Below are positions 10,669 through 60,478 of a stretch of DNA of 64,000 nucleotides, piece by piece. The notes under the pieces are model-generated. The model worked only from the letters and a program-made list of their open reading frames with translations. It ran no database searches and was not told where the DNA came from. Source of the DNA: Leuctra nigra (taxonomy: Eukaryota > Arthropoda > Insecta > Plecoptera > Leuctridae); assembly GCA_934045905.1 (NCBI GenBank), contig OW203773.1, forward strand, positions 14,557,246 to 14,621,245, written 5' to 3'. Both the position numbers and the translations under genes were made by a program. The first letter of the stretch is position 1. Each line of letters begins with the position of its first letter.

Positions 10669-13600
10669 TTAGTCTACTGTGAGGTTTCTGAAAGTCCCCA
10701 CTGTGCCGAAGAGCGTGTCGGTGTCGACTGATTCTTCCAGTCTCTTGGACTCATCGACTTTCTCCACAAGTTCCCGCTGCACGAACCAGTCACGATTTCT
10801 TTCGACCTCTCTCCTCCATGCGTCTGGAATAGAACAACAATGCTGTGAAATAAGTTTGAAGTAAAAATTTCATTGATTTAGGAAGTAGGTAATTTACACT
10901 CAATATCATTGGGTCAAATACTTACAATTACTAAAATGTTATTTCTTCCTTGTGTCGTACTTCATACATTTACAATTTAGGCAAAAAAAATATGAATAAA
11001 AACATGCTTATTGTATTTTTTATAAATTCCAAGCTCCAACTAACCAAAACTCCAACCAAAACCGGGCTTCCTTTTTCATGATCAATAAAATAATAACTTA
11101 TCTACTAGTGTTAGATGACATGTTAGCATAGACTTCATCAGATTATGCCATCAAATTTTTTTACCCAATCCATGTCGTTCGAATACTGTTATATCTTTGT
11201 TGAGTGGACATACGTGTACGCTCAATCTTTTGGACTTAAAACCTGAGTATAAGTCAATAAACTACTTTATACTCCATATACTTTATACTTAATACTTTAT
11301 ATTTTATACTGACTTTATTATAATACCCGAGTATTAAAATCTTTTGTGAATCTAGCACTAGATTCTCGTGTCATTTCACTACCTTTCCCTACAGTCTGGT
11401 AAAATACTGTTACACGACTATAGTTCGTCCAATTAAGATACAAATTTGATACTAATTGGCCATTCCTATAATCAAGTGTAGCTAATAGTGGTTTGATTTT
11501 ATTTCAGAGCCACCCAACGAAAGAGATTCGGATCCGTAGTGCAGAGAATACGTAATGTGCACCTACCTGCCAGTTCTTTATACGTCTTCAGCTTTCCGCC
11601 GTAGTCACATGGAAGAAGCTCTGGGTCGACGTGTTCGTGAAAGGACGCCAAGGTAGCGTGGACGTGTAGTCTTGACGTGAGCTTGTTCTTCAAAACTGAT
11701 TTCAATATCGACATGAACATGTTGATGGCTGGTGGCGGATTGATGAAATGCATTGCTTTCACAGAGGCTTTGTATCCACTCTGAAACAATGTGTTCATAA
11801 TATGTTGACACTCTCTCACTCTACCAAGGAGGCTTAAACTGACAATGTATGTACAACAGTGGCGGCTATTACAGTGTGCAAGGTGTGACAATTGCACACC
11901 TGATCATCCAAGAAAATTTTTTAAAAGTGCTCCCTAATCCAGGAAGTAGGAAGTTAAATATTTTGTCTAATCATTTTGCTCTCCAAAAGACGTAAAAATG
12001 CATCAATTTCAAACTAAAGATACAAAAAAATCCGGGGTTATGCGCCCCGGCCCCGCATCTGCTGGGGGCTCTCCTCTTAGAGTACTTTCTTCTACGTCCT
12101 TCTATGTAATTGAACACCTGTTGTAAAGCCAAATAGCCCATACAATTACGTTCGTTGTATGTACAAGATATTTTTTTTAGTTACGTTTCTTGTTGAAAAT
12201 CTAATATAAGTAGGTATAGGTATAACAATGTTATATGTTTCTTACCATCATGCAGGTATCAAATTTTTTTATTTCAGCCAGAGTAAGTTGTGAGACGTGA
12301 GTAAATGTTAAATATTCGCAATCCAGTATTTCAATTTCTTCAGAGTGTATTTTCTGAAACAATGTATAGATGAGTGGACAGAAAATAAGTGGACAAAGTG
12401 GTGGTCCTAAACCCATATGAGGAGTTTCTATATAAACGCAGCTTGTCAAATAATACAAGGCAACAAGTTTTAAAATATAATTCGAATTTAATTTCAACTG
12501 TTATGAATATAATTGCACAGGGAGTAATGATGTAGCCCCATAAAAACACTCCGGGTTGATTTTTGCATCGATATGTGATTCAAGTTGTATGAATCCCATA
12601 AAAAAACCCTCCGTGTAAAAATACCAGCCAAGTCTCTTCAACTATAAAAAATAGAAGAAATCTAAAACTTAATAATAATAATAGCGACTCGAGCTTTTTA
12701 CGACTGTCGTCGTCTCCCGCTTCCTTGCCGCCAAGCATCTCGGTCCTGCCAGTCGACGTCCTGCATTTGTCTGCCATGCATGGCCTCTTCAATCCCCTTC
12801 AACCATGACGTCGCTGGTCTTCCCCTTCTTCTCCTTTCTGCGGGGTCCATTCGAAAACTCTCCTTGGCCACCTCTCTTCACCCATTCTTCGCATATGGCC
12901 GTACCAAGATAACTGTCTTTCCTCCACTCTGTCCACTATTGAGTCCTGTACGTCCATTCTTCTCCTAATTTCTACATTGGGAACGTGTTCAAGACGAGAC
13001 ACTCTACAACTGCGCCTTAGAAAATCCATCTCCAGAGCTTAAATATGCCCTTATTACGGTTGCTCAAGTCCCAACTCTCCGCTCCATAAGTAGCTATAGG
13101 CTCCACAATAGTTCTATAAATATTTTTCTTTGTATTTCTCGTGATCTCATCACTCCACCAAATGGAATTCAGTTTTTGTATAGCAGATCTTCCTTTCCCA
13201 ATCCTACTTTTTATGTCCAGATTACTATTTCCTTCCTTACTAATAGTCACTCCTACTAATAGAAATAGATCACTAATAATACTAATAATACTAATACTAA
13301 TAGATATATCACTATACTATCCTACTAATCCTACTAATAGAATAATAATCCTTCTACTAATAGATCCTACTAATAGATCACTAGAGGAGTGATCTAAAAC
13401 TTCAGCACCGAAAAGTAGTGATATCAAAAAATGGGCCAAGTCAAAACTTAATTTTATAAACCCAAATATACTTGGCGCATCGTGTACCTAAATATATAAA
13501 TATATAAATCAAATGTACCTAAATATATATAATATACCTAAATGGCCTTTAACACGATGCGCCAAGTACATTTTGGTTTTTAAAATTAAGTTTTGACTAA

Positions 13601-16600
13601 TAAAAAGTATACATTATAAAATGTATAATAAAATGTAATGACTAATCAGAATAATATCATTTATCATTCTCAAAGTTAGATTTAAATTTTTCCTCTCTTC
13701 TCATTAAGATTTTACCATTATTAGTCATTATTTGAGCTTATTTGATCATTAATAAAAAGTTTGTTTTCTCATTACTTTAATGAATTCTTCCAATAAATCA
13801 ATTACTATAGTGACAATTAGATTTTTTTGTGCGAGGGGGGGGGGGGTCTGCAGTTGTGACATACTTTTTAGGGGGTTTGTATAAAGTGTGACAACTTGAG
13901 ATAAGGAGAGGTGGGGGGGGGGGTTAATTATTTGCCTATTCTGCGTAAAATACTTTATAACCAGCCCCTTTTTTAAAACATCACTTTTTTACGATAAGTG
14001 ATACCTAAGTGATGATAAGTGATCATCCTATAATATACCGGGTGGCGCAAGAAAAAAACACCCTTAATGAGAGGTCACTATATCGAAACTAATATAGATA
14101 GGATTCCGAAATTTGTACACATATTTGAAAACATACCGAAAATTAATGTGTGCAAGTTTAAACCGTTCTCCTAGTAGCTAATAAAAGTTTAGAAATGGCA
14201 GAAATGGAACTCCAGAGCAACTTCAATAAATTAATTTGTTGGACTCATGATAGTGGTCTGGTGATTAATTCTAGCAAAACAAAAATATTACATATATGTT
14301 CTCCTTTTAATACAGGAAAGAATTCTTTGATTGACATTACTTTTCATTCCATTAGTTGTATTCATAATAATATGTTGGAAGGTAGTTGTCTTTGTGTGAC
14401 TAAAATTGAGACAGCTGAAACTCATGTTTATTTGGGTTTGACTATTGATAGACATTGGACAAAAGGCGGCTTAATATACAATCCCTACTATTTTTAATAT
14501 CATTCCCCCAGTTTTGAAACAGTTAGATAAATATGTTATTATTAAAAAGGAAAACAAAGAGTGGTTGATAAATAGAGAAACTAAATTGAATATGTTTTAT
14601 TATTATTATTATTATTATTATTTTACTATTCAACTCAATTACATTTGGTAAATACTTTGTAATATAATCCTAAATATTCTTATGAATTTGTATTGTTTAT
14701 TGATTTAATTAATTATGTCTGCAAAATTGAGCTGTATTTCTTTATGATTTATTATGGTTTATTGAATTATGTATTGCCACAGGCTAGCCAGTCATGGCTA
14801 TGTGGCCTAGTCTGACTATAATGTATTGACCTGTTTATAATAAATAAAATGCTAAAACAAACAAAAAAACAGGGTGATTTTTTTTGCGCCACCCGGTATA
14901 ATAGATATAATTAACATCCTGTGTGTGTACTACATGGTGCTCACTAAAATATTGATTAGATGCTGGAGCAATGGTTCATTATAACATCAGTGAGCACTAA
15001 ACATATAAATATAAACTAAAAAAATAATATTTGAACTCACCTCAATTTGTGTTACGAAGAGTTCTCTATACATGAAAGCCAGTTTACAAAATTGTCGAAT
15101 GGAGAATGTCTGAGGGTCAGTCTCGGTTAACTTTACGATACACACTCTGTTTCCGTCCTTAGTCCTTTGTGGAATGACTGCCATGGTACTGAAACGTACA
15201 TTATTACGTGAGTTATTGAATCGTCTCTTTTTGACACATGTCTCTGTTTCACCAAGAGATAAGAGATGGAGCTGCGGTCGCTGCAAAATGGCCCAAAACG
15301 ATGCAACGTGGATTCCGTTCAAGGCCAGCGCGGGTTCATTTGGTAAACTATTGTTCAATGATACTATTCAGACCTCTGACTTCACTTTCAAAATGATAAT
15401 ACGTATATTACTTTTAGTATGTTCAAATAATTCGACTTAAATTTTTTACTACCTATTACTAAAAATAATGATTAAATAACTAAAGGATCGGCATGATATA
15501 AAACTGCTTCCAGATATAAACCCTGTTTCCAATACATTTTGGGTCAGGGGGTAGACAATACATTATCTAACCAGTTTATACTTCGGCTATTTATTTCTGA
15601 ACCGGGTTGCCGGGCCGGTTAATATTTCTACAAACTTTTCTTCCATTTCACTATTTTCAACCTCTAGCATCATAATCAAACCATTCCAGATGTGTATATC
15701 TTCCCACTACCGTTCCTCTTGAACCATTACCCAGTCTTCCCCTCTCCCATCCTCTTCACTCAAATTCTTTTTTGTGCTCTATAGGCCTTCCCACACTTCT
15801 CTTTCTGAAAACATTAGCTTCAAGCTCTCGTCAGGCCATCCTTCCAATATCTATTCTTTTCACGTTACCAAACCACCTTAATCTCTCCCTCCCCATCTTC
15901 CCAATCGTTCCACATCTAAATTATTCCTGATTATTGTACATATCATCATATCCTGACCCAAAATATATTGGAAACAGGTTTTTATAAAAATTATCATATT
16001 GATCGTCCCTCCATTATTTTCTAATATTTTTAAATATTTAATTATTTTTTGAATTGTCATCCACTTATTATTAATAAAATGCACATCAACATTAGGAGGA
16101 CACAAGAAATGTACAAAAAAGTATTTTATAATCAGAAAATTAACAACTGGAAATACTCTCACTGACACACATGCATTAAAAGATTATTTCTGGCAAAGAT
16201 TTCGTAAATTGAAGAAAAAATTATTTTCATAAAATTACAGTTATAACATTTTTGAAGTGAAATAAATGGTTCGTCCAAGTAGATTATATTTTCAAATGTC
16301 ATTCACGATAGTTCTGGGATGCAATTGTGGTCGTGAAATCCATATAAAGTCAATTTTTTTGATTTTTTAATTCGAAATAGATCAATATCCTTCATTTTAC
16401 TGATAATAGCTGTCAGAACACAGTATGTATACTACACTTCTAAATCAGACTTCTATTTGTAAAAATAAGTAAGTTATTTGAATTTTTGTCACAGTCAATT
16501 TACGTCCCATTCACAAAGTCTTGGCCAGAAAAATTCTCGCATCCGGACACTAGCCGCGGGAATGGTTTCCTCATATTTCGAATGAAATGTGAGCCATTGA

Positions 16601-25847: not shown

Positions 25848-27479
25848 ATGCCAAACTGCTGTGTATTTGGTTGCAATCGAAGTGGAGGTATCAGGTTTCC
25901 AAGTGACCCAACATTAAGAAAGCAGTGGATACATGCGGTGAGAAGAAAAAATTGGGTGCCAACCAAATACAGTGTTGTCTGTCATTCACACTTCAAACCT
26001 TCTGAATACATTACAGAAGGATATTATTCGGGTATGTACCTGTGAATACATGTTTAGTAGAAGAAACACCATATATTTAATGCTCGCCATAACTCTAGTT
26101 AGTAAGTAGGTAGGTACCTACCATATTAGGTCGTAGGTACCTAACCTAACAGCAGCTGTCACAACATTTTAGAATCATTCTTACCATTACCTTCTACTAT
26201 GCTTCTACTAAATAACTGTGCCCCATTACCCATTCTACCATCTAGCATACTTCTTGTTGGTGTTATTCTAATATCTTTTATGATCCCTTCAGGTGTACAA
26301 TCAACTCGGAAATTATTGAAACCTGGTGTAGTTCCTACAGTTTTTACATGGCTCAAAAGCAAACCACACGGGGAAGAAAGAAGGTTACGTTTGGAGAGAA
26401 GGTCGACACAGCCACAACCCACAACACTGGAGCCTGTACTAGAACAAACAGAAGATGTTATTCTGCAGCCATTCCCTGACCACTGTGATGTGCATGAAGA
26501 AATCATCGATGCTGCTACAATAATCTTACCGAGTTCAAATTCCTCAGCCGAAGTTGGCTGTCAAACTGTCACCGAAGGCCCTCGATTCTCTATAAGTGCT
26601 TTCATTACAAACTCAAAAGCTTTACATTTCTATACTGGTTTAGAGAATTATGCTAAATTTACTCTAGTTTTACAAACTCTAGGCCCTGCAGCGGATCAGT
26701 TGAATTATTTAAAAAACCAGGTACTTAACATTTCTGTTGAAGATCAATTCTTCCTAACACTGATCAAACTCCGTTTAAATAAACAAATATTTGAACTAAG
26801 CTTGATGTTTGAAATCTCTGAAGCCACTGTGTCAAATATTTTTAATACATGGGTAACTTTCATGGCATTACAGTGGGCCGAATTAGATATTTGGCCTTCT
26901 CAAGAGTTAGTTCAGTACTACATGCCGAAAGACTTCAAGCGAAAATTTCCGAACACTAGAGTTATCATGGACGGAACAGAATTCCCAATCAATAAACCAA
27001 CAGAACCAAATGTCCAGCAGGTTACATTTTCTACGTACAAGAACCGTAATACATTGAAAGTTCTTGTTGGGGTAACGCCAGGCGGCTTAATAAGTTATTG
27101 TTCGGATGCATACGGGGGCTCGGCCAGTGACAGGCAGATCGTTGAAAGAAGTCAGTTTGTAAGCATGTGTGATCGTGGAGATACAATAATGGCCGACAGG
27201 GGATTCAATGTACAGGACTTATTTGCACCGAAAGATATCAGTATAAACATTCCAGCTTTTCTTAAAGGTAAAAATCAATTACCCGGCCTTACCGTTGTTC
27301 ATGATCGAAAGATAGCCAGCAAACGAGTTCACGTAGAGCGCATCATTGGGATGACGAAGACATACAAGATCCTCAAGCATGAACTGAACACTCACTTTGT
27401 GCACTTGGGAACCAAAATTTACTTTGTTAGCGCTATGCTTTGTAATTTCCGTGAGTCTATTGTGGGAAGGAATGCGTAG
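25848..27479 (+). CDS. THAP + DDE_4 transposase, two exons, 456 aa (PIF/Harbinger-related, ISL2EU-like)
   Basis: Exon 1 (25848-26031) and exon 2 (26293-27479) join across a 261-bp GTATGT...TTCAG intron with matching phase (TCG G / GT GTA). Exon 1 carries a THAP zinc finger: MPNCCVFGC, then W-I-H-A and CHSHF, and the domain closes after the splice with LLKPGVVPTVF, the THAP AVPTIF-type box. This supports the intron. A helix-turn-helix follows (LRLNKQIFELSLMFEIS, SEATVSNIFNTW). The DDE_4 nuclease has IMDGTEFPI (first D), GGSASDRQIVE (second D), DRGF and HVERIIGMTK (E). The frame is uninterrupted. A polyadenylation-type AATAAA lies at 27605. The usual YqaJ-nuclease partner of ISL2EU elements and the terminal repeats were not seen, so a domesticated copy cannot be excluded. 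Confidence 0.88.
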
Positions 27480-50661: not shown

Positions 50662-53450
50662 TTAAAAACAGGAGTACGAAACAGCATGGTATTTTACGTA
50701 AGAGTATTGAACCATTGCCTCTCGTTCTAGGTTACATACTTAAAAACAGAAGTACCGAACGGCATGGCATTTAACACAACAGTATTGAACATTCCAGGTT
50801 ACTTACTTACTTAAAACCAGGAGTACCAAACAGCATGGCATTTTACACAACAGTATTGAACATTCCAGGTTACTTACTTACTTAAAACCAGGAGTACCAA
50901 ACAGCATGGCATTTTACACAACAGTATTGAACATTCCAGGTTACTTACTTACTTAAAACCAGGAGTACCAAACGGCATGGCATTTTACACAACAGTATTG
51001 AACATTCCAGGTTACTTACTTACTTAAAACCAGGAGTACCAAACAGCATGGCATTTTACACAACAGTATTGAACATTCCAGGTTACTTACTTACTTAAAA
51101 CCAGGAGTACCAAACAGCATGGCATTTTACACAACAGTATTGAACATTCTAGGTTACTTACTTACTTAAAACCAGGAGTACCAAACGGCATGGCATTTTA
51201 CACAACAGTATTGAACATTCTAGGTTACTTACTTACTTAAAACCAGGAGTACCAAACAGCATGGCATTTTACACAACAGTATTGAACATTCTAGGTTACT
51301 TACTTACTTAAAACCAGGAGTACCAAACGGCATGGCATTTTACACAACAGTATTGAACATTCTAGGTTACTTACTTACTTAAAACCAGGAGTACCAAACG
51401 GCATGGCATTTTACACAACAGTATTGAACATTCTAGGTTACTTACTTACTTAAAACCAGGAGTACCAAATGGCATGGCATTTTACACAACAGTATTGAAC
51501 ATTCTAGGTTACTTACTTACTTAAAACCAGGAGTACCAAATGGCATGGCATTTTACACAACAGTATTGAACATTCTAGGTTACTTACATACTTAAAAACA
51601 GAAGTACCGAACGGCATGGCATTTTACACAACAGTATTGAACATTCTAGGTTACTTACTTACTTAAAACCAGGAGTACCAAATGGCATGGCATTTTACAC
51701 AACAGTATTGAACATTCTAGGTTACTTACAACCTTAAAAACAGAAGTACCGAACGGCATGGCATTTTACACAACAGTATTGAACATTCTAGGTTACTTAC
51801 TTACTTAAAACCAGGAGTACCAAACGGCATGGCATTTTACACAACAGTATTGAACATTCTAGGTTACTTACTTACTTAAAACCAGGAGTACCAAATGGCA
51901 TGGCATTTTACACAACAGTATTGAACATTCTAGGTTACTTACTTACTTAAAACCAGGAGTACCAAATGGCATGGCATTTTACACAACAGTATTGAACATT
52001 CTAGGTTACTTACATACTTAAAAACAGAAGTACAGAACGGCATGGCATTTTACACAACAGTATTGAACATTCTAGGTTACTTACTTACTTAAAACCAGGA
52101 GTACCAAATGGCATGGCATTTTACACAACAGTATTGAACATTCTAGGTTACTTACTTACTTAAAACCAGGAGTACCAAACGGCATGGCATTTTACACAAC
52201 AGTATTGAACATTCTAGGTTACTTACTTACTTAAAACCAGGAGTACCACACGGCATGGCATTTTACACAACAGTATTGAACATTCTAGGTTACTTACTTA
52301 CTTAAAACCAGGAGTACCAAACGGCATGGCATTTTACACAACAGTATTGAACATTCTAGGTTACTTACTTACTTAAAACCAGGAGTACCGAACGGCATGG
52401 CATTTTTCACAACAGTATTGAACATTCTAGGTTACTTACTTACTTAAAACCAGGAGTACCGAACGGCATGGCATTTTACACAACAGTATTGAACATTCTA
52501 GGTTACTTACTTACTTAAAACCAGGAGTACCGAACAGCATGGCATTTTACACAACAGTATTGAACATTCTAGGTTACTTACTTACTTAAAACCAGGAGTA
52601 CCGAACGACATGGCATTTTACACAACAGTATTGAACATTCTAGGTTACTTACATACTTAAAAACAGGAGTACCAAATGGCATGGCATTTTACACAACAGT
52701 ATTGAACATTCTAGGTTACTTACTTACTTAAAACCAGGAGTACCAAATGGCATGGCATTTTACACAACAGTATTGAACATTCTAGGTTACTTACTTACTT
52801 AAAACCAGGAGTACCAAATGGCATGGCATTTTACACAACAGTATTGAACATTCTAGGTTACTTACTTACTTAAAACCAGGAGTACCGAACGGCATGGCAT
52901 TTTACACAACAGTATTGAACATTCTAGGTTACTTACTTACTTAAAACCAGGAGTACCGAACGGCATGGCATTTTACACAACAGTATTGAACATTCTAGGT
53001 TACTTACTTACTTAAAACCAGGAGTACCAAACGGCATGGCATTTTACACAACAGTATTGAACATTCTAGGTTACTTACTTACTTAAAACCAGGAGTACCG
53101 AACGGCATGGCATTTTACACAACAGTATTGAACATTCTAGGTTACTTACTTACTTAAAACCAGGAGTACCAAATGGCATGGCATTTTACACAACAGTATT
53201 GAACATTCTAGGTTACTTACTTACTTAAAACCAGGAGTACCGAACGGCATGGCATTTTACACAACAGTATTGAACATTCTAGGTTACTTACTTACTTACT
53301 TAAAACCAGGAGTACCGAACGGCATGGCATTTTACACAACAGTATTGAACATTCTAGGTTACTTACTTACTTAAAACCAGGAGTACCAAACGGCATGGCA
53401 TTTTACATAACAGTATTGAATCATTATCTTTCGTTCTAGGTCACTTACAG
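50662..53450 (+). repeat. 71-bp minisatellite, about 39 units
   Basis: The unit reads CAGGAGTACCAAACGGCATG, GCATTTTACACAACAGTATT, GAACATTCTAGG and TTACTTACTTACTTAAAAC. Phase checks (ATTCC at 50791 and 50862) give 71 bp. Variants at the CAAACAGC/CAAACGGC/CAAATGGC/CGAACGGC position and CATACTT...AACAGAAG units occur interspersed. The first and last units are longer, with CATTGCCTCTCGTTCTAGG or CATTATCTTTCGTTCTAGG instead of CATTCTAGG, as expected when the interior was homogenised after a deletion. Confidence 0.97.
53444..53450. other. Target-site duplication, left copy, of the P-like transposon
   Basis: CTTACAG adjoins the CATAGAGAT terminus. The identical right copy is at 59517-59523. The left copy belongs to the last minisatellite unit (GGTTACTTAC family sequence). 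Confidence 0.85.
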
Positions 53451-53687
53451 CATAGAGATGTATACACAGAGAGGGGCATGTACGGGTTATGCACGTGACC
53501 ATGACAGAGTTCTAAAAAATGGCCGCCGAAACAGAGGGAATCATGGGAGGCGGCCATATTGGGGAAACTTTTCTGACAGTCCACATTGAATGTATTGAGA
53601 TATGTTGTCTGTATTGTCGATATTAACGGTGTTAATTAAAGTGTATTCATTATTTAAACGATATATGTAAGGCAAAGTGTTGTCAGA

Positions 53688-56600
53688 ATGTTTCCAGGAC
53701 GTGGTAAGAGTGCTGGCGAGCCGAAAAAATGGAAAAAACGGTATTATTGTGCTCATGGAATGTGCACAAATAATACTCGCGATGTCGGAGAAGACATCAT
53801 TTTGTTACCCTTTCCAAAGCCATTCCGTGATTATTTATCTTCATTATATGACCCAAGCATTGAACATAACATCGTCAATTGTTTAAAATGTAGCAAAGTT
53901 AAAAAGTGGATGCATTTATGTAAGAGAGGGGACGCGAAGTTCAAACACTTGAGTGACATAACCTCGAACACCTACATCTGTAATCAACACTTTCAAGATC
54001 GTAGTGGACCAACAGAAAGCCATCCAGATCCTTTTGCTGCTGACAAGAAAGATTCATTGGTCGTAAGTTACCTACTAATACCTACATACTTTACTACCCA
54101 ATTAGGGCTACAAATTGAGATGCTTTATAACTAGAATTTTGTCAGCTTACCTAGCAGCTCAGCTATGCAATATTATTTTGATAAACTGTTGTGATTACTA
54201 TTCCACTGTAACATATACATTCTAAATAGCACATACTATGATTGATTTTCAGAATGTTGAAAGGTCTCGATCCCGAAAGCGGCCTTTGGAGAGAAATAGC
54301 TCGGTTCCACTGAAACGCACAAAACCGGAAACGAGGAATGAAATCTCTGTTGAATTGTGTGACGACGAACATCTAATTGTCTCAGAGGTATGTTTCTAAT
54401 GGTTTCTAGTTTCTTCGCTTTCATCGGTGTACATCTTCAGCCTTCTAACTGTGGATTTTTAAAATTCTAATGAGTAAAAAATAGTAATAAAAAGATAACA
54501 TTAAAAATATTTATTTTTCTAAAATTAATTTGCTAAATTATGAAGCCAGTTGACTCAGTGCCTACACAAACTATGAACTTTTGTACATTGAGCCTAGTTA
54601 CCTACTACTACCCACACATGGATACAAAGTTAGCAATTTAGCGATTGATTTTAGAATTTTAGAAGACTGGATCTTGATCGCTGTAATATTTTTGTTCCAG
54701 ACCGACGACACATTTGCTGCAAACAGTCTGCCCGCTCAAACACCAGCCGCTCAAGACCACGACTATTCGACACCCTCGAGTGTGACGGCTCCACCTACGA
54801 GTGAGGAACAGCGGTTGTATGTGAATGTGGCGCAGACAATATTTGCACATAACCTCATGTGCAAGTTCGACCATGAAGCTATTCGTGTCATGGTGCAGGA
54901 AGAAGTGTGTTGTTGTATAAATCGGGATTATACTATCAATATAAGTGTCTTGGGCCAGGACATTGATGAAAATCATGCAGTTTGGTTGTATTTCCCTAAA
55001 ACAATAGATCCAACCCAAAGTGATTATATAAATATTTTGAAACAACTCCAGGAGCAGTGGCAAGTTTGCAAATTCTTTCTAATTTCTAAAGTAGCATCAG
55101 AGTTTTGCAACTTGAAACTTAGTGACATTGCAAATGAGGAGGCATTGGATGCAATGAAGAGAGTGAAGAATTGCAAGATTCTCAATAGGCAAGAAGTGTG
55201 TACTGCTTGCAAGAAAACTTGTGCAGCAGTTAAGAAAATTGCTGCTAGAAGAGCCAAAAAGCAATTATCAAAAGCCAAGAATCATTCAAAAAATGTGAAA
55301 TATTTTACACGACATGAAGCGTTGGATTGCGTACGTGAGACTCGGCGCTCACTTCACTTAGAAAAGCGCAAGACGGCTCGGCTAAGGAAGAAGATGGGAA
55401 AGTTGATAGACAAGAGAGGAGTCGCCTTAACAACGGCAGACAACGAAGACTTTCTGAAGATATTGACATCTGCTGAGGATGAAGGAGGTGACAAGGGCAA
55501 CAAAATTGACCTCACGAAGTTGTTCTTCCAAGAACAAATAAAGGCAGCGAAAGCTAGGTCACCAAAAGGCCATCGCTGGCACCCTCTGCTTCTGAAATGG
55601 TGTCTGTACTTGAAGACCAAGTCATCGTCGACATACTCAGCACTGCGGAACGTGATAACTCTCCCATCAGAAAAGCGGTTGTATGAGATTCAGGCGCACA
55701 CACACATTAGACCCGGCTTTCAAGACGATGTCCTAGCGTCACTAGTGGAGGAGTTTAATGCGACTGGGCCTGAAACTCACAAACGGTACTGCTCGCTGCT
55801 GTACGACGAAATAAAAATTCAGGAGGACCTTATCTACAAGACATCAACAAATGAACTGATCGGCTTTGTTCACCTGAGCACTGTTGATCAGCTGCTTGCA
55901 GAAATCAGTTCGGAGACAAGTGGAACCAAAACAGCGGAACCAGAACTAGCCTCTCACATACTTCAGATAATGGTCAGAGGGATCACAACTCCGATTCTGG
56001 TAACGTTTGCTTACTTCGCAACACGAACACTGCAGGCAAGACAACTTTTCACAATCCTCATTGAAGCCACAGAAATCTTGGAGAGGAAAGATATTAGGGT
56101 CATCGCTTTCGTTTCTGATGGAGCAGCTGCGAACCGAGCCCTATATCGCTCTCTATCGTCGGATGGAGCGAACTGGTGGACAGTGAATCCGTATGCTGAA
56201 GACCGCAAGATATTCTTCATTTGCGATGCACCACATTTGCTTAAAACCACAAGAAATTGTTTTTCGAATAGTGGTTCCCACAAGAAGACAAGACTATTGT
56301 GGAAAGGTGGCAAGCATATTGAGTGGTACCACATCAACAAGGCCTACCAAAGCGACTTGACGGATGGGATTCGGACACTCATCAACATAACGGATGAACA
56401 CATTCATCTGACGCCATGTTCGCTTATGAAGGTGAAGTTGGCCGCCCAAGTCCTTTCGAGAAGAATGGGGAATGCGCTTCGGGCAATGAAGTGTGATGAG
56501 ATGTCGGAGACCATCATTTATGTTGAAACATTTAACAAATGGTTCGACCTAATGAACGTGCGGAACCTGAGAGAAGGAATCATGTCAGCGAATGATAATG

Positions 56601-57571
56601 TGAAGCCCTTCAGCAGTGCCACAGATAGCAGACTCGAATGGCTGACTAAGGATTTTATCCAGTATCTGGACGGCTGGGAAAAGGAAGTGATGGAGAGACC
56701 CGGAAACTTCACAAAATCAGAAAGGTTGAAGATGCTACTGAGTAAGGAGACTGTTGAAGGCTTGAAAGCTACAGGTATGATAAAAATTACTTGATTTTTA
56801 CATTGTATGTTTTTGCACAACATTTATTAATAATGCAATGAAATCTGATAAAAAGTGCACTTCATAAATATGTAGGTACAAATAATTACAGTTTGAACTA
56901 GTTTCAAGAGCATTGGCACATAATATCAAATAGGTTCTTAAAAAAATAAGTGTTTGATTTTCAGCTCACAACCCTCAAGTACCTGATTAAAATTGATGTT
57001 TTCACATCATTTTGTGCATTATCATAGCTCAAAACTTTGAGATTTTTCTTCTGCCATGAAGTGAAAATCATAAATAAATGTAATGGCACTTAGTTCCAAT
57101 TAGTAGGTATTTGAAACTTCACTATCATAATTGTCGATAAAAAAAATGGTAAATTCGACATCTAATTATAAATTAAATTAAAACAACTTGGCACCCATTG
57201 AAAATTGCACAATAATAATATTAATAACACATTTGATTTTCAGCACACAACATTGTGTCCCTGACTAAGTTCATGCTAGCTGAGGGAGCCAAGTTTGTGC
57301 TTACGTATAAGTTCAATCAAGACCCGGTCGAACTTGAGTTCTCAAAGCAACGAGGTGCTGGAGGTTGCAATACTAATCCAAGTGTTTTGAGGTAAGCAAC
57401 AGAAGTTACCTACATTACATCTTCCTAATCGTTATGTTTACATTCCTTTGGGCACCAGAATAATCATCCTTTTTTGTTAATAGATATGGCGACAACACTG
57501 CAAAACTTAAATCAATGAGAATTGCGAAGAGAGAAATTGTTTATGCGGGCAAGGGAAATATCTCCAAGTAG
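53688..57571 (+). CDS. P-element/THAP9-like transposase, five exons, 939 aa
   Basis: Exons 53688-54062, 54253-54387, 54701-56774, 57244-57391 and 57484-57571 total 2820 nt, with GT-AG junctions all in phase. A THAP-like zinc finger at residues 21-101 (C21, C26, C98, H101, with W74) is longer than usual between the Cys pairs. Exon 2 is basic and NLS-like (RSRSRKRPLERN). Residues 300-400 are coiled and basic. The RNase H-like core has HRWHPLLLKWCLYL, LLYDEIKI (D about 539), FVSDGAAANR (D about 643) and CDAPHLLKTTRN. The last acidic pair, QDPVE (about 888-891), lies in small exon 4, followed by GAGGCNTNPS. These match the P-element/THAP9 family, in which a GTP-binding insertion separates the second and third catalytic residues. 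It is predicted to bind the terminal repeats in the nucleus and cut and paste the element. Confidence 0.9.
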
Positions 57572-57733
57572 CAGATAACCGTTCTTCGTTCTTGACAAAC
57601 AGTTCTTGACAGAAGCATCTCCGTTCTTGTACATAAAATAAGGAGCTTAGAATGTTCACTTCGGTTCTTCGTCGGACTGAAATTGATCGTCGTACAGAAA
57701 ATGAATAACATTCCGGAGAAGTAATGAGGATGT

Positions 57734-59300
57734 CTATTTTGGCTCATCAGATCGAAGATTTGCTAGTTGTGTTCTCAGTGATTTTTTGCTCCCTTTTGAT
57801 GCAACATTTGTACTTTTAGTTACTCTAATACGACTTATGCGTAACTTGGTTTTGCTAACATCCTTTACGTAGCGAACGAATGCTTTCAGTCTACCGTTTA
57901 TGTGAAGTCGAACTGCTTCGCGGTAAGCTGCCTCACATTTGTTCTCGGGTCCTTTCCACATGGACTTCCATGTTTTATTAAGTAGCACATTGTCGTTCAA
58001 TGATTCCATTAGTTTAATAGTATCTCTTCTGTTTCTCGTATCAAGATACTCGTCTTCGATTAGTAAAATCTTCTCAAAGAAGTTGTAGAATTCATAGGTG
58101 CAATAATTTAGCCGCCCACCTCTATCCAGGCCCTTCGTCCATTCAAAGCTTTCAATGTTCGCCTTTTTGAAAGCTTCCAAATTTTTGCAACTAATGTAAA
58201 AGTTTTTTACGTTCGCATGACCAAATTTCTTGCTCAGCTTCCGCAGCATAAAACCGAGATAGTGTCGGTGTGCTCGATGTCTGGTCGTCGATACATTTGT
58301 TTTTTCTGCAGGTTTGGTTTCATCCACAGACTTTGCTTCTTGCTGCTCTTTATTCACTCGTTCGACAAATAACAATTTATTGTCTTTTTTGTAAATTACA
58401 ATAGATTCCATCAACTTGCGGAATATACACTGGCTTTCGAATTTGACAGACTTTACTTCTTTCATGGTGATTGTGTGTGAATCCTGAAATACAAATTTAT
58501 AGTGTTAATATTTTTAGATTTTTACTGTACAAATTGCATTATAATTATATCATAGAGATCTATTTTTGTACTTGAATACAATTTTACTTACCATTATTAT
58601 TCCTACTGCATTTTCTAAATGGATCATGACAGTCCTGTCCAATCGCAATTTATGAGTTTGCGCCCAAAATAGCTCGATTTTGCTCTTATTAAATAGAGGT
58701 GCAATACAAGATGCAAAATTCCTTACATCTTCTTCTTCATATTCCAACTCAATTGGCTGCTGAATGCCGAAATGCTCCACAGCAATCTTGTTGAACATTT
58801 TTTGAATGTCTGCAAATTGTTCTAAAAATAAGAATTGTATTGATTATGATATGGATAGAGAGAAAAGCTGTAGGTATGTAGTTTAAAAAAAAATACAAGT
58901 GATCATATACCTATACCATAGAACAATTTCTATCTTTATTTTGAGCCATGTTTCTGGCTAGGTAGGTATATCTTACTTCTCTTTGTAAACAAATGTCAAA
59001 ACCACCCACCTGGATAACTTTGTAACCTATATAGGTACCTACCTACACTGACCAATAAAATTAAATCTACTTATTCCTTATGTACTTATTTGCATTTCTT
59101 TTGTTAACAAGTCCTTTCAAATAAATACCTATTCAATTAGTAGTAATGAAACAAATGTGTTCCTTAGCCAAGGTTCCTAACCCCAAATTACAAGAACTTG
59201 TCAAACATACTTCAAGGATTATAACGTTTTAAAATAATCTAGGTCTTTATTTTAATGTCTATTGAAACAACTCACCTTTATTCATCTCATTTTTCTCCAT
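57734..59300 (-). CDS. Second gene of the P-like transposon, 334 aa, function unknown
   Basis: Three exons in transcript order: 59276-59300 (ATG, MEKNEMNK, donor GTGAGT), 58592-58821 (acceptor TTTTTAG, donor GTAAGT) and 57734-58483 (acceptor TATTTCAG, stop TAG). They total 1005 nt with phases 1 and 0 agreeing. Exon 2 contains FNKIAVEHFGIQQPIELEYE and LFWAQTHKLRLDRTVMIHLE. Exon 3 contains RHRAHRHYLGFMLRKLSKKF, LDRGGRLNYCTYEFYNFFEK and a Lys/Arg-rich tail (about the last 50 residues) that could bind nucleic acid. No zinc finger, nuclease or helicase motif was recognised. The GGRLNYCTYEFYNFFEKILL block loosely recalls the C-terminal segment of some THAP/P-type transposases (GGL..S.E.F), so it could be a partner or repressor; this is inference. 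It is transcribed from the right end toward the transposase. Confidence 0.7.
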
Positions 59301-59596
59301 ATTTCAAGTTTTAAATCTAGTAAACAAGAGATCACTACGATGGAACTGTTGTTATTGACCTGTGAAACATGTGGAAAACTGATGTCAACACAATTTCATT
59401 CCCCAGTATGGCCGCCTGTCAGATGAAGGGTGGGAGTGGCCTCGGCCGAGCCCCCGTCACTGGCGCGCGTTTTAAGATGCCCCTCTCTGTACGAAGTACA
59501 GTAATATATCTCTATGCTTACAGGACGAAAAGAAGAACGTAATAATTACTTCTTGGTACTAAAACGATTTGGCGTATTTCCTACAATCATCAATAA

Positions 59597-59945: not shown

Positions 59946-60439
59946 TCAAAGAAAGGCCCTGTGGGGCTGGGTGGGGGCGCGGCCCCCGCGCCCCCCTTAA
60001 CCCTAGTATAATTGGTTTCATTGCCTCCCCCCCCCCGGCAGATATCTTGGGGACGCCCATAATGGGATTGTCTTAATTGTATTAGGTAAGTCGCTTTTCC
60101 TGCCACTAAAATAATTATAACGGTGTAATTAAGTACAATTTTAATAGGAGTTTTATGCATTTATACATACGATATTCGTCAGTTGCAAGATTTCAAAGAA
60201 AGGCCCTGTGGGGCTGGGTGGGGGCGCGGCCCCCGCGCCCCCCTTAACCCTAGTATAATTGGTTTCATTGCCTCCCCCCCCCCGGCAGATATCTTGGGGA
60301 CGCCCATAATGGGATTGTCTTAATTGTATTAGGTAAGTCGCTTTTCCTGCCACTAAAATAATTATAACGGTGTAATTAAGTACAATTTTAATAGGAGTTT
60401 TATGCAGTTATACATACGATATTCGTCAGTTGCAAGATT
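59946..60439. repeat. 247-bp direct tandem duplication, two near-identical copies
   Basis: TCAAAGAAAGGCCCTGTGGG starts at 59946 and again at 60193. Only about one difference was noticed (GCATTTATAC/GCAGTTATAC). The unit holds GC-rich GGGGGCGCGGCCCCCGCGCC and a C run, like internal parts of CAGGGG-type hAT relics. Confidence 0.9.
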
Positions 60440-60478
60440 TGGTGAATACAGCAATAGCATTTAATTCCTGTAATAAAT

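Follow-up and report, generated by a model that had tools for sequence, protein, structure and literature searches.

The window analysed here, a stretch of 64,000 nucleotides from Leuctra nigra (Plecoptera; assembly GCA_934045905.1, contig OW203773.1, positions 14,557,246 to 14,621,245 of the forward strand), contains a 6,066-bp transposon at positions 53451–59516. Two predicted spliced genes face each other tail to tail within it: gene 1 encodes a P-type transposase that ends without the C-terminal domain (CTD), and gene 2, on the opposite strand, encodes a protein resembling that domain. This is probably a complete copy of a recently mobile two-gene P element, in which the gene 2 protein, being either a descendant of the CTD or an unfused CTD, works as a separate subunit. 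Judged from its catalytic domains, ends and duplications, the element belongs to the P superfamily; it is not a canonical P element, as a fused CTD, a single gene and an 8-bp duplication are all missing. An original prediction, made from the letters of the window, had proposed an intact P-like transposon with two convergent genes. All of its coordinates were verified, and the assignment to the superfamily is borne out by Pfam and PDB matches and by genome copies with the same ends.

The element is delimited by terminal inverted repeats (TIRs) and by the perfect 7-bp target-site duplication CTTACAG, as had been predicted; both flanks were read. The tips, CATAGAGATGTAT on the left and CATAGAGATATAT on the right, are 13 bp each with one mismatch between them, and the inner block ACAGAGAGGGGCAT is the same at both ends (14 of 14 positions). 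The spacer between tip and inner block measures 2 bp at the left end and 13 bp, which is 11 bp more, at the right end. The 29-bp left-end pattern, searched with up to 3 mismatches, occurs at one site in the 64-kb window and at none in 100 shuffles. A terminus-like sequence, CATAGAGATCTAT, also lies inside a gene 2 intron (58551–58573), where 23 nt are 87% complementary to the right end; it may be either a decoy end or a chance match (7 window sites with up to 2 mismatches, 3.1 expected).

The transposase predicted from the five in-phase exons of gene 1 is 939 amino acids (aa) long, as originally proposed, and every intron border is GT..AG. The Pfam comparison found the two parts of the RNase H domain (TNP-like_RNaseH_N, 79.8 bits; RNaseH_C, 30.1 bits; both over the cut-off), the GTP-binding insertion domain (GBD, PF21788; 57.7 bits, cut-off 24.8) and an N-terminal THAP domain that barely exceeds its cut-off (PF05485; 24.9 versus 23.9 bits). 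A PDB sequence search gave the Drosophila P transposase as the closest relative of solved structure (E 2.8e-18). In the alignment with its structure 6p5a, the triad D539, D679 and E891 falls on D230, D303 and E531, the catalytic residues of the fly enzyme as numbered in excerpts of PMC7776569 and PMC8230255. The earlier claim that a scan of open frames would miss the catalytic D-E holds for the Glu, which needs exon 4, and not for the two Asp residues, which both lie within exon 3. The end of exon 3 is supported by the relative P0002, whose reading frame stops 2 residues past the same place. In the related genomic loci, the tblastn pieces break at residues 861–863 (L113, L114 and L117) and at residues 908–911 (L112–L115); no break is seen at residue 862 in L112 or at residue 910 in L116 and L118.

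The window transposase ends 48 aa past E891. Pfam gave no match to THAP9_C in it, and none up to E 1 to the HTH domain PF12017, which the relatives P0063 and P0066 have. The protein search for the transposase provided 66 relatives (P0002 onwards) from the best 7,994 candidates scored; among these candidates the nearest is P0002 (53% identity over the region searched), followed by proteins at 38% or less, some of which are named proteins from molluscs, a sea urchin, thrips and Hydra. A Glu motif was recognisable by pattern in 50 of the 66; the other 16, many of them fragments, have no motif by pattern. The tail past the Glu is 60–80 aa in 45 of the 50, 103 aa in P0039 and 20 aa in P0067. The fused-type relatives P0063, P0065 and P0066 extend 246–276 aa past it; THAP9_C was called in P0063 (32.8 bits), scored 19.8 bits in P0066, under the cut-off, and was not called in P0065. 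These counts come from a list biased to the window transposase's own kind, in which metagenome predictions may miss exons. FastTree, run on 56 sequences, separated the four with a fused tail from the remaining 52 (support 0.988; labelled 0.894 after rerooting), one trial of rooting not giving them as a single clade. The window transposase falls with P0002 and the genomic loci L112, L114 and L118 in one clade of support 1.0. The tree omitted proteins shorter than 500 aa, P0052, P0054, P0059, P0061, P0064, P0067, and rows with fewer than 200 aligned residues.

Gene 2 is predicted to have three exons on the minus strand and to encode a basic protein of 334 aa (net charge +20); its stop codon is separated from that of gene 1 by 162 bp. 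We read gene 2 as a distant homologue of the CTD of P and THAP9 transposases, the very domain missing from the window transposase, a reading based on profile and motif comparison. When a profile of seven gene 2 proteins was aligned by hhalign with a profile of four fused tails (P0063, P0065, P0066 and L131), the score was 41.5 (E 1.4e-5 for the single comparison, probability 80%). With the second gene of group B, described below, added, it was 52.8 (E 2.5e-7, likewise for the single comparison; probability 93%). In the controls, the best of 60 column shuffles reached 18.6 (21.7 with the group-B gene), the reversed profile 11.8 and 11.3, and two other domains of the same proteins 12.6–18.1. Gene 2 and the fused tails also have in common, in the same order, the motifs Y-[LI]-[AG]-G-[FY] and RGG[LI] and a K/R-rich C-terminus. 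L131 is a member of a distant branch in the source genome and the sole fused-tail protein read there; its tail can be aligned with gene 2, and Pfam made no call on it.

The pairing of the two genes is not confined to the window. In the source genome (536 Mb in 144 contigs, the window included), 19 matches to gene 2 exon 3 were found, of which 3 belong to long copies of the window element and the 16 others lie in 12 loci. A P-type transposase and gene 2 stand tail to tail in 9 of these 12 loci; L123 has convergent fragments of both, and in L119 and L121 the 10 kb read contains only fragments of gene 2. By tblastn the identity to the window proteins is mostly 38–64% for the transposase (range 23–75) and 29–56% for gene 2; L113, L114 and L115, about 99% identical, are copies of one family. 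At 7 loci we searched for CA-tipped ends (up to 3 mismatches allowed over 13 positions) that enclose both genes and are flanked by an exact 7-bp duplication. A single solution was obtained in two, L117 (GTTACAC) and L118 (GCCTGAC), both with CATGGAG tips and with the 7 bp preset; there was no solution in the other five, some of which have their ends beyond the DNA read. In a third related element (C9:27035109-27045166), the right tip and the inner block ACAGAGAGGGGCA predicted the duplication, and GTCTGAC with a matching tip was then found on the left. Each of these three diverged elements has ends of its own that enclose the two genes in tail-to-tail order, and here the predicted two-gene arrangement is corroborated. 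In the C5/C2 family only the right end was seen. Gene 2 has stops in L112 and L117; both genes are open in L118 where matched. Separately, both ends of a 1.3-kb element at L123:4452-5762 have the exact 13-bp left tip of the window family; the element is flanked by the duplication GTTCAAT, contains convergent remnants of the two genes and derives by deletion from a related two-gene element.

The same pairing was seen from the side of the transposase. A genome search with it listed 65 matches (64 of 188 candidates scored), clustered to 55 loci, from which L116, L122 and L123 are absent. A convergent second gene occurs within 6 kb at 18 of the 33 listed loci of at least 31% identity, at 16 of the 17 such loci with at least 450 of 691 residues matched (about nine families, not 16 independent cases), and at none of the 22 listed loci below 31% identity; one further listed locus has a second-gene match nearby in an orientation that is not convergent. 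Another branch, group B, shares this layout; its transposases have 31–35% identity to the window transposase and no match to gene 2. Beside one group-B transposase stands a convergent 350-codon frame with motifs reminiscent of gene 2. This second gene of group B has 26 matches in the source genome; the ends of the group-B element were not seen. Codon position 3 is the most divergent in all 24 aligned pieces of both genes (at least 40 codons each); for gene 2 versus L113, the difference per codon position is 0.34, 0.28 and 0.61, and synonymous divergence (dS) is saturated in nearly all pieces. We read both genes as being under purifying selection, with the qualification that protein-level alignment favours such a pattern somewhat.

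As for recent mobility, the left 120 bp of the element occurs at no fewer than 15 places in the source genome and the right 120 bp at no fewer than 17. Eighteen loci were read, 13 with both ends and 5 with one. Perfect 7-bp duplications, each different, flank all 13 two-ended copies, any length of 4–12 bp being allowed, in agreement with the duplication length and termini proposed for the window copy. An assembly artefact was dropped as an explanation, the 13 copies being spread over 9 contigs. The other twelve two-ended copies (L088–L099) are non-autonomous, 1,496–2,047 bp long, with family ends of about 400 bp each flanking a middle of about 690 bp of other origin; no source of this middle was found in the window or the other compared loci except for a 26-bp match. 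They are just 0.07–1.46% apart and thus spread recently. Their ends are more diverged from the window copy than among themselves (identity 96.5–97.5% on the left and 91.0–94.5% on the right, one 87.7% in part), so that the window copy is not their recent source. Among the three long copies found, the window copy alone has an unbroken transposase. The C10 copy, 99.0% identical by BLAST with 34 substitutions in 6,027 positions, has no left tip and a 1-bp deletion in exon 3 of the transposase; its gene 2 exon 3 is still open. The C6 copy (L103; 99.3–99.8% identical) has a TAG in exon 3 and a 3,924-bp insert in intron 2, and its right end was not found in the locus read. A search of the source genome for an unoccupied site, with the joined flanks of the window insertion, matched only the two flanks themselves. 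With an unbroken transposase in the window and such young non-autonomous copies, the suggestion that the family is possibly active appears reasonable. When the 17 duplications of the window family and its relatives are taken as a set, they are palindromic (27 of the 51 pairs are complementary, as against a mean of 13.5 in shuffles, none of 10,000 shuffles reaching 27). Their pattern is GT....AC, 12 of the 17 starting with GT or ending with AC, and the CTTACAG of the window lies outside it.

Several points weigh against a split transposase with gene 2 as its CTD. The profile comparison was post hoc, the motifs having already been spotted by eye, and the significant alignment covers only 57–61 columns, the last 40 residues being alike by eye. 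Gene 2 stays below the cut-off of every Pfam model, and THAP9_C is unmatched up to E 1 in all eight members of the gene 2 family scanned. Compared directly, gene 2 and the group-B gene match only weakly (E 8e-4, probability 24.7%; 15.2% in a second comparison). The match to the solved fly chain stops short of the fly CTD, of which THAP9_C is a putative homologue. Structure gives little help: PDB sequence searches found nothing significant for gene 2 (a single match of E 1.2; E 1.3 with the family profile) and 0 matches for the group-B second gene, the fold models of gene 2 exon 3 are weak (mean predicted local distance difference test scores 52.7 and 58.3, the latter model being helical), and Foldseek of the gene 2 model against PDB gave nothing (best E 2.2). 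Outside the source genome, a search of 5.8 billion proteins, restricted to those with shared exact words, yielded only three short unannotated relatives of gene 2, seen without their surroundings (120–221 aa, sources jgi and lgn, 49–50% identity over the aligned part). In the genome, a convergent gene 2 is absent from the neighbourhood of C4:4538013, which is well covered and contains several stops, and of 14 shorter matches, and among the positive loci three are the window family's long copies. Finally, the fly CTD is described as acidic in portions of PMC7776569 and PMC10983969, and gene 2 is basic.

Other explanations of gene 2 have to be set beside this one. The element may be a two-gene mobile element whose gene 2 is dispensable for the reaction and acts as a regulator, either a CTD-derived competitor or repressor, or an RNA- or DNA-binding silencer of host defence; we consider this unlikely. 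Truncated P proteins are known as repressors in Drosophila, and the open gene 2 exon 3 of the C10 copy, despite the deletion in its transposase, would suit such a role. However, the C10 copy differs too little from the window copy for selection to show, and a mere repressor would not explain why a CTD-less transposase is paired with gene 2, as against the distant loci without a gene 2 match, among which L131, the only one read, has its tail fused. It is very unlikely that gene 2 arose separately and encodes an accessory protein that aids import or integration, like mudrB or the Myb-like protein of Harbinger, with its CTD likeness due to chance or convergence. MuDR of maize and PIF/Harbinger are two-gene DNA transposons, and the genes of MuDR are convergent as here; the transposases and second proteins of both are unrelated to the P type. 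The shortness of the profile match and a C2H2 finger in frame directly before the group-B second gene would fit an accessory protein. Against it stand the scores of 41.5 and 52.8, far from those of the best shuffles, the same order of the motifs, and the complementary occurrence, to the extent read, of fused tails and gene 2.

Gene 2 without a named family might also be a host gene, captured by a one-gene P element or lying beside it, with the pairing accidental. This is extremely improbable, gene 2 being inside ends and duplications in four diverged elements and convergent with the transposase at 18 loci; a host gene next to a one-gene element is ruled out by these same observations unless all of them are assembly errors. 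A chance open frame as gene 2 was also dropped.

The element can be compared with known systems. The Drosophila P element (6p5a/6pe2) is alike in its P-type RNase H D-D-E, GTP-binding insertion, N-terminal THAP, TIRs, subterminal inverted repeats and target duplication. Its inner spacing is likewise unequal, the transposase site lying 9 bp from the TIR at one end and 21 bp at the other according to excerpts of PMC7776569, as compared with 2 and 13 bp from tip to inner block here. It differs in having one gene, a fused CTD, an 8-bp duplication and a length of 2.9 kb, whereas the present element has two genes, a CTD-less transposase, a 7-bp duplication and a length of 6.1 kb. Galileo, a member of the P superfamily in Drosophila, has 7-bp duplications, a few of 8, with the palindromic consensus GTATTAC; it resembles our set in this respect, and differs in its long TIRs and in that a second gene goes unmentioned in the excerpts of PMC4168063 from which these data come. 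THAP9 and zebrafish Pdre2 have the same catalytic domains, and gene 2 resembles the THAP9-type C-terminal domain (THAP9_C in P0063), but in them a single protein carries the domain fused, and the duplications of Pdre2 are 8 bp (PMC7776569, in part). Anopheles P elements encode THAP P-type transposases of 876–895 aa and have TIRs of 27–31 bp, and differ by 8-bp duplications and one three-exon coding sequence (PMC1562414, in part). P-like transposases that lack a CTD in molluscs, a sea urchin, Hydra, thrips and metagenomes (among P0002–P0062) have 29–53% identity and, where shown, the same short tail past the Glu; they differ in being known as lone proteins. No description of a two-gene or split P element was found among literature titles and abstract beginnings, a scope outside which lie most subscription papers and Repbase, where such elements may be described. 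Relatives in viral and bacterial or archaeal contigs were sought and none was confirmed; the 75 stretches given by a 14-base pattern scan of viral contigs were taken as chance matches of a short word.

The coordinates of the element and its genes are collected in Table 1.

Table 1 Features of the two-gene P element in the window
Feature	Position	Strand	Basis
Target-site duplication CTTACAG, left copy	53444..53450	.	7 bp, sequence read
Left TIR: 13-bp tip CATAGAGATGTAT, 2-bp spacer, 14-bp inner block ACAGAGAGGGGCAT	53451..53479	+	inverted-repeat search, end-pattern scan
Left subterminal inverted repeat AGGCGGCCATATTGGGGAA, 97 bp inside the end	53548..53566	+	inverted-repeat pair, 95% complementary
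Transposase exon 1, THAP zinc finger	53688..54062	+	predicted GT..AG splicing, Pfam
Transposase exon 2	54253..54387	+	predicted GT..AG splicing
Transposase exon 3: N-terminal part of RNase H (D539, D679) and GTP-binding insertion domain	54701..56774	+	splice prediction, Pfam, 6p5a alignment
Transposase exon 4: C-terminal part of RNase H (E891)	57244..57391	+	splice prediction, Pfam; exon breaks matched in some paralogues
Transposase exon 5 and stop	57484..57571	+	splice prediction
Gene 2 exon 3 and stop, 249 codons, CTD-like region	57734..58483	-	splice prediction, genome matches, profile comparison
Gene 2 exon 2	58592..58821	-	splice prediction; matched in L112, L113, L114 (near-copy of L113) and L120
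Gene 2 exon 1 with start codon	59276..59300	-	predicted from splice signals alone
Right subterminal inverted repeat, 99 bp inside the end	59399..59417	-	19-nt partner of AGGCGGCCATATTGGGGAA, 95% complementary
Right TIR: 14-bp inner block, 13-bp spacer, 13-bp tip	59477..59516	-	inverted-repeat search
Target-site duplication CTTACAG, right copy	59517..59523	.	7 bp, sequence read

Other features were noted in and beyond the window. A tandem repeat with a 71-bp unit (about 38 copies, 96% match) occupies 50732–53425 and stops 25 bp short of the element, and just past the element a 247-bp unit stands twice in tandem (59946–60440, 99% identical) with G/C-rich stretches. The introns are rich in TACCTACC. 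A 444-aa open frame at 26145–27479 (plus strand), with HTH_Tnp_4 and DDE_Tnp_4 domains, encodes another transposase within the window, which we read as akin to PIF/Harbinger or ISL2EU. On the minus strand, a 160-aa frame at 390–872 is like a 7tm_6 odorant receptor under the Pfam cut-off, with another match equally weak, and CRAL/TRIO-domain frames lie at 11499–11903 and 14987–15367, the latter under the cut-off; these frames are in keeping with an insect. An Rfam scan of the window gave no match at the gathering score. In the group-B locus, the C2H2 finger frame (L130:3-383, plus strand; just under the Pfam cut-off) lies upstream of the second gene in the same frame with one stop between, and is perhaps an earlier exon of it. 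The insert in intron 2 of the C6 copy (C6:37705–37710 kb) contains a 350-aa frame, which by eye resembles gag and has a CCHC knuckle, and two copies of a 105-aa frame; the insert is probably a long terminal repeat (LTR) retroelement.

In the split arrangement, the gene 1 product, with its THAP, RNase H and GTP-binding insertion domains and its D-D-E, would bind and cut the ends. The gene 2 protein would join this catalytic subunit in trans and hold the transposon ends and the target DNA as the fused CTD does, and the excised element would integrate with a 7-bp stagger. The fused CTD is all-helical, sits on a flexible linker and touches both transposon and target DNA (PMC7776569, in part). A domain tethered like this could be supplied in trans. 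Splicing in vivo, binding between the two proteins, the role of the CTD in trans and present-day activity are what we infer here. Since 45 of the 50 related proteins with a Glu motif end without a CTD, the split may be widespread. Our judgement is evenly balanced on the broader proposal that P transposases come in two architectures, a fused one (classic P, THAP9) and an animal-wide split one, with the catalytic subunit and the CTD as facing genes at opposite ends.

The P transposase is among the best-studied transposases and a relative of human THAP9. A natural form with the CTD as a separate protein would show the CTD to be a separable subunit. It would explain the apparent absence of the CTD from many P-like transposases in animal databases, and it would give a two-component test system, in which the role of the CTD could be tested by adding or omitting one protein. 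If the split is true, strand transfer hinges on two proteins from two promoters, which amounts to built-in self-regulation. With an intact copy and very young non-autonomous copies, the family of the window element is a candidate live P-type transposon.

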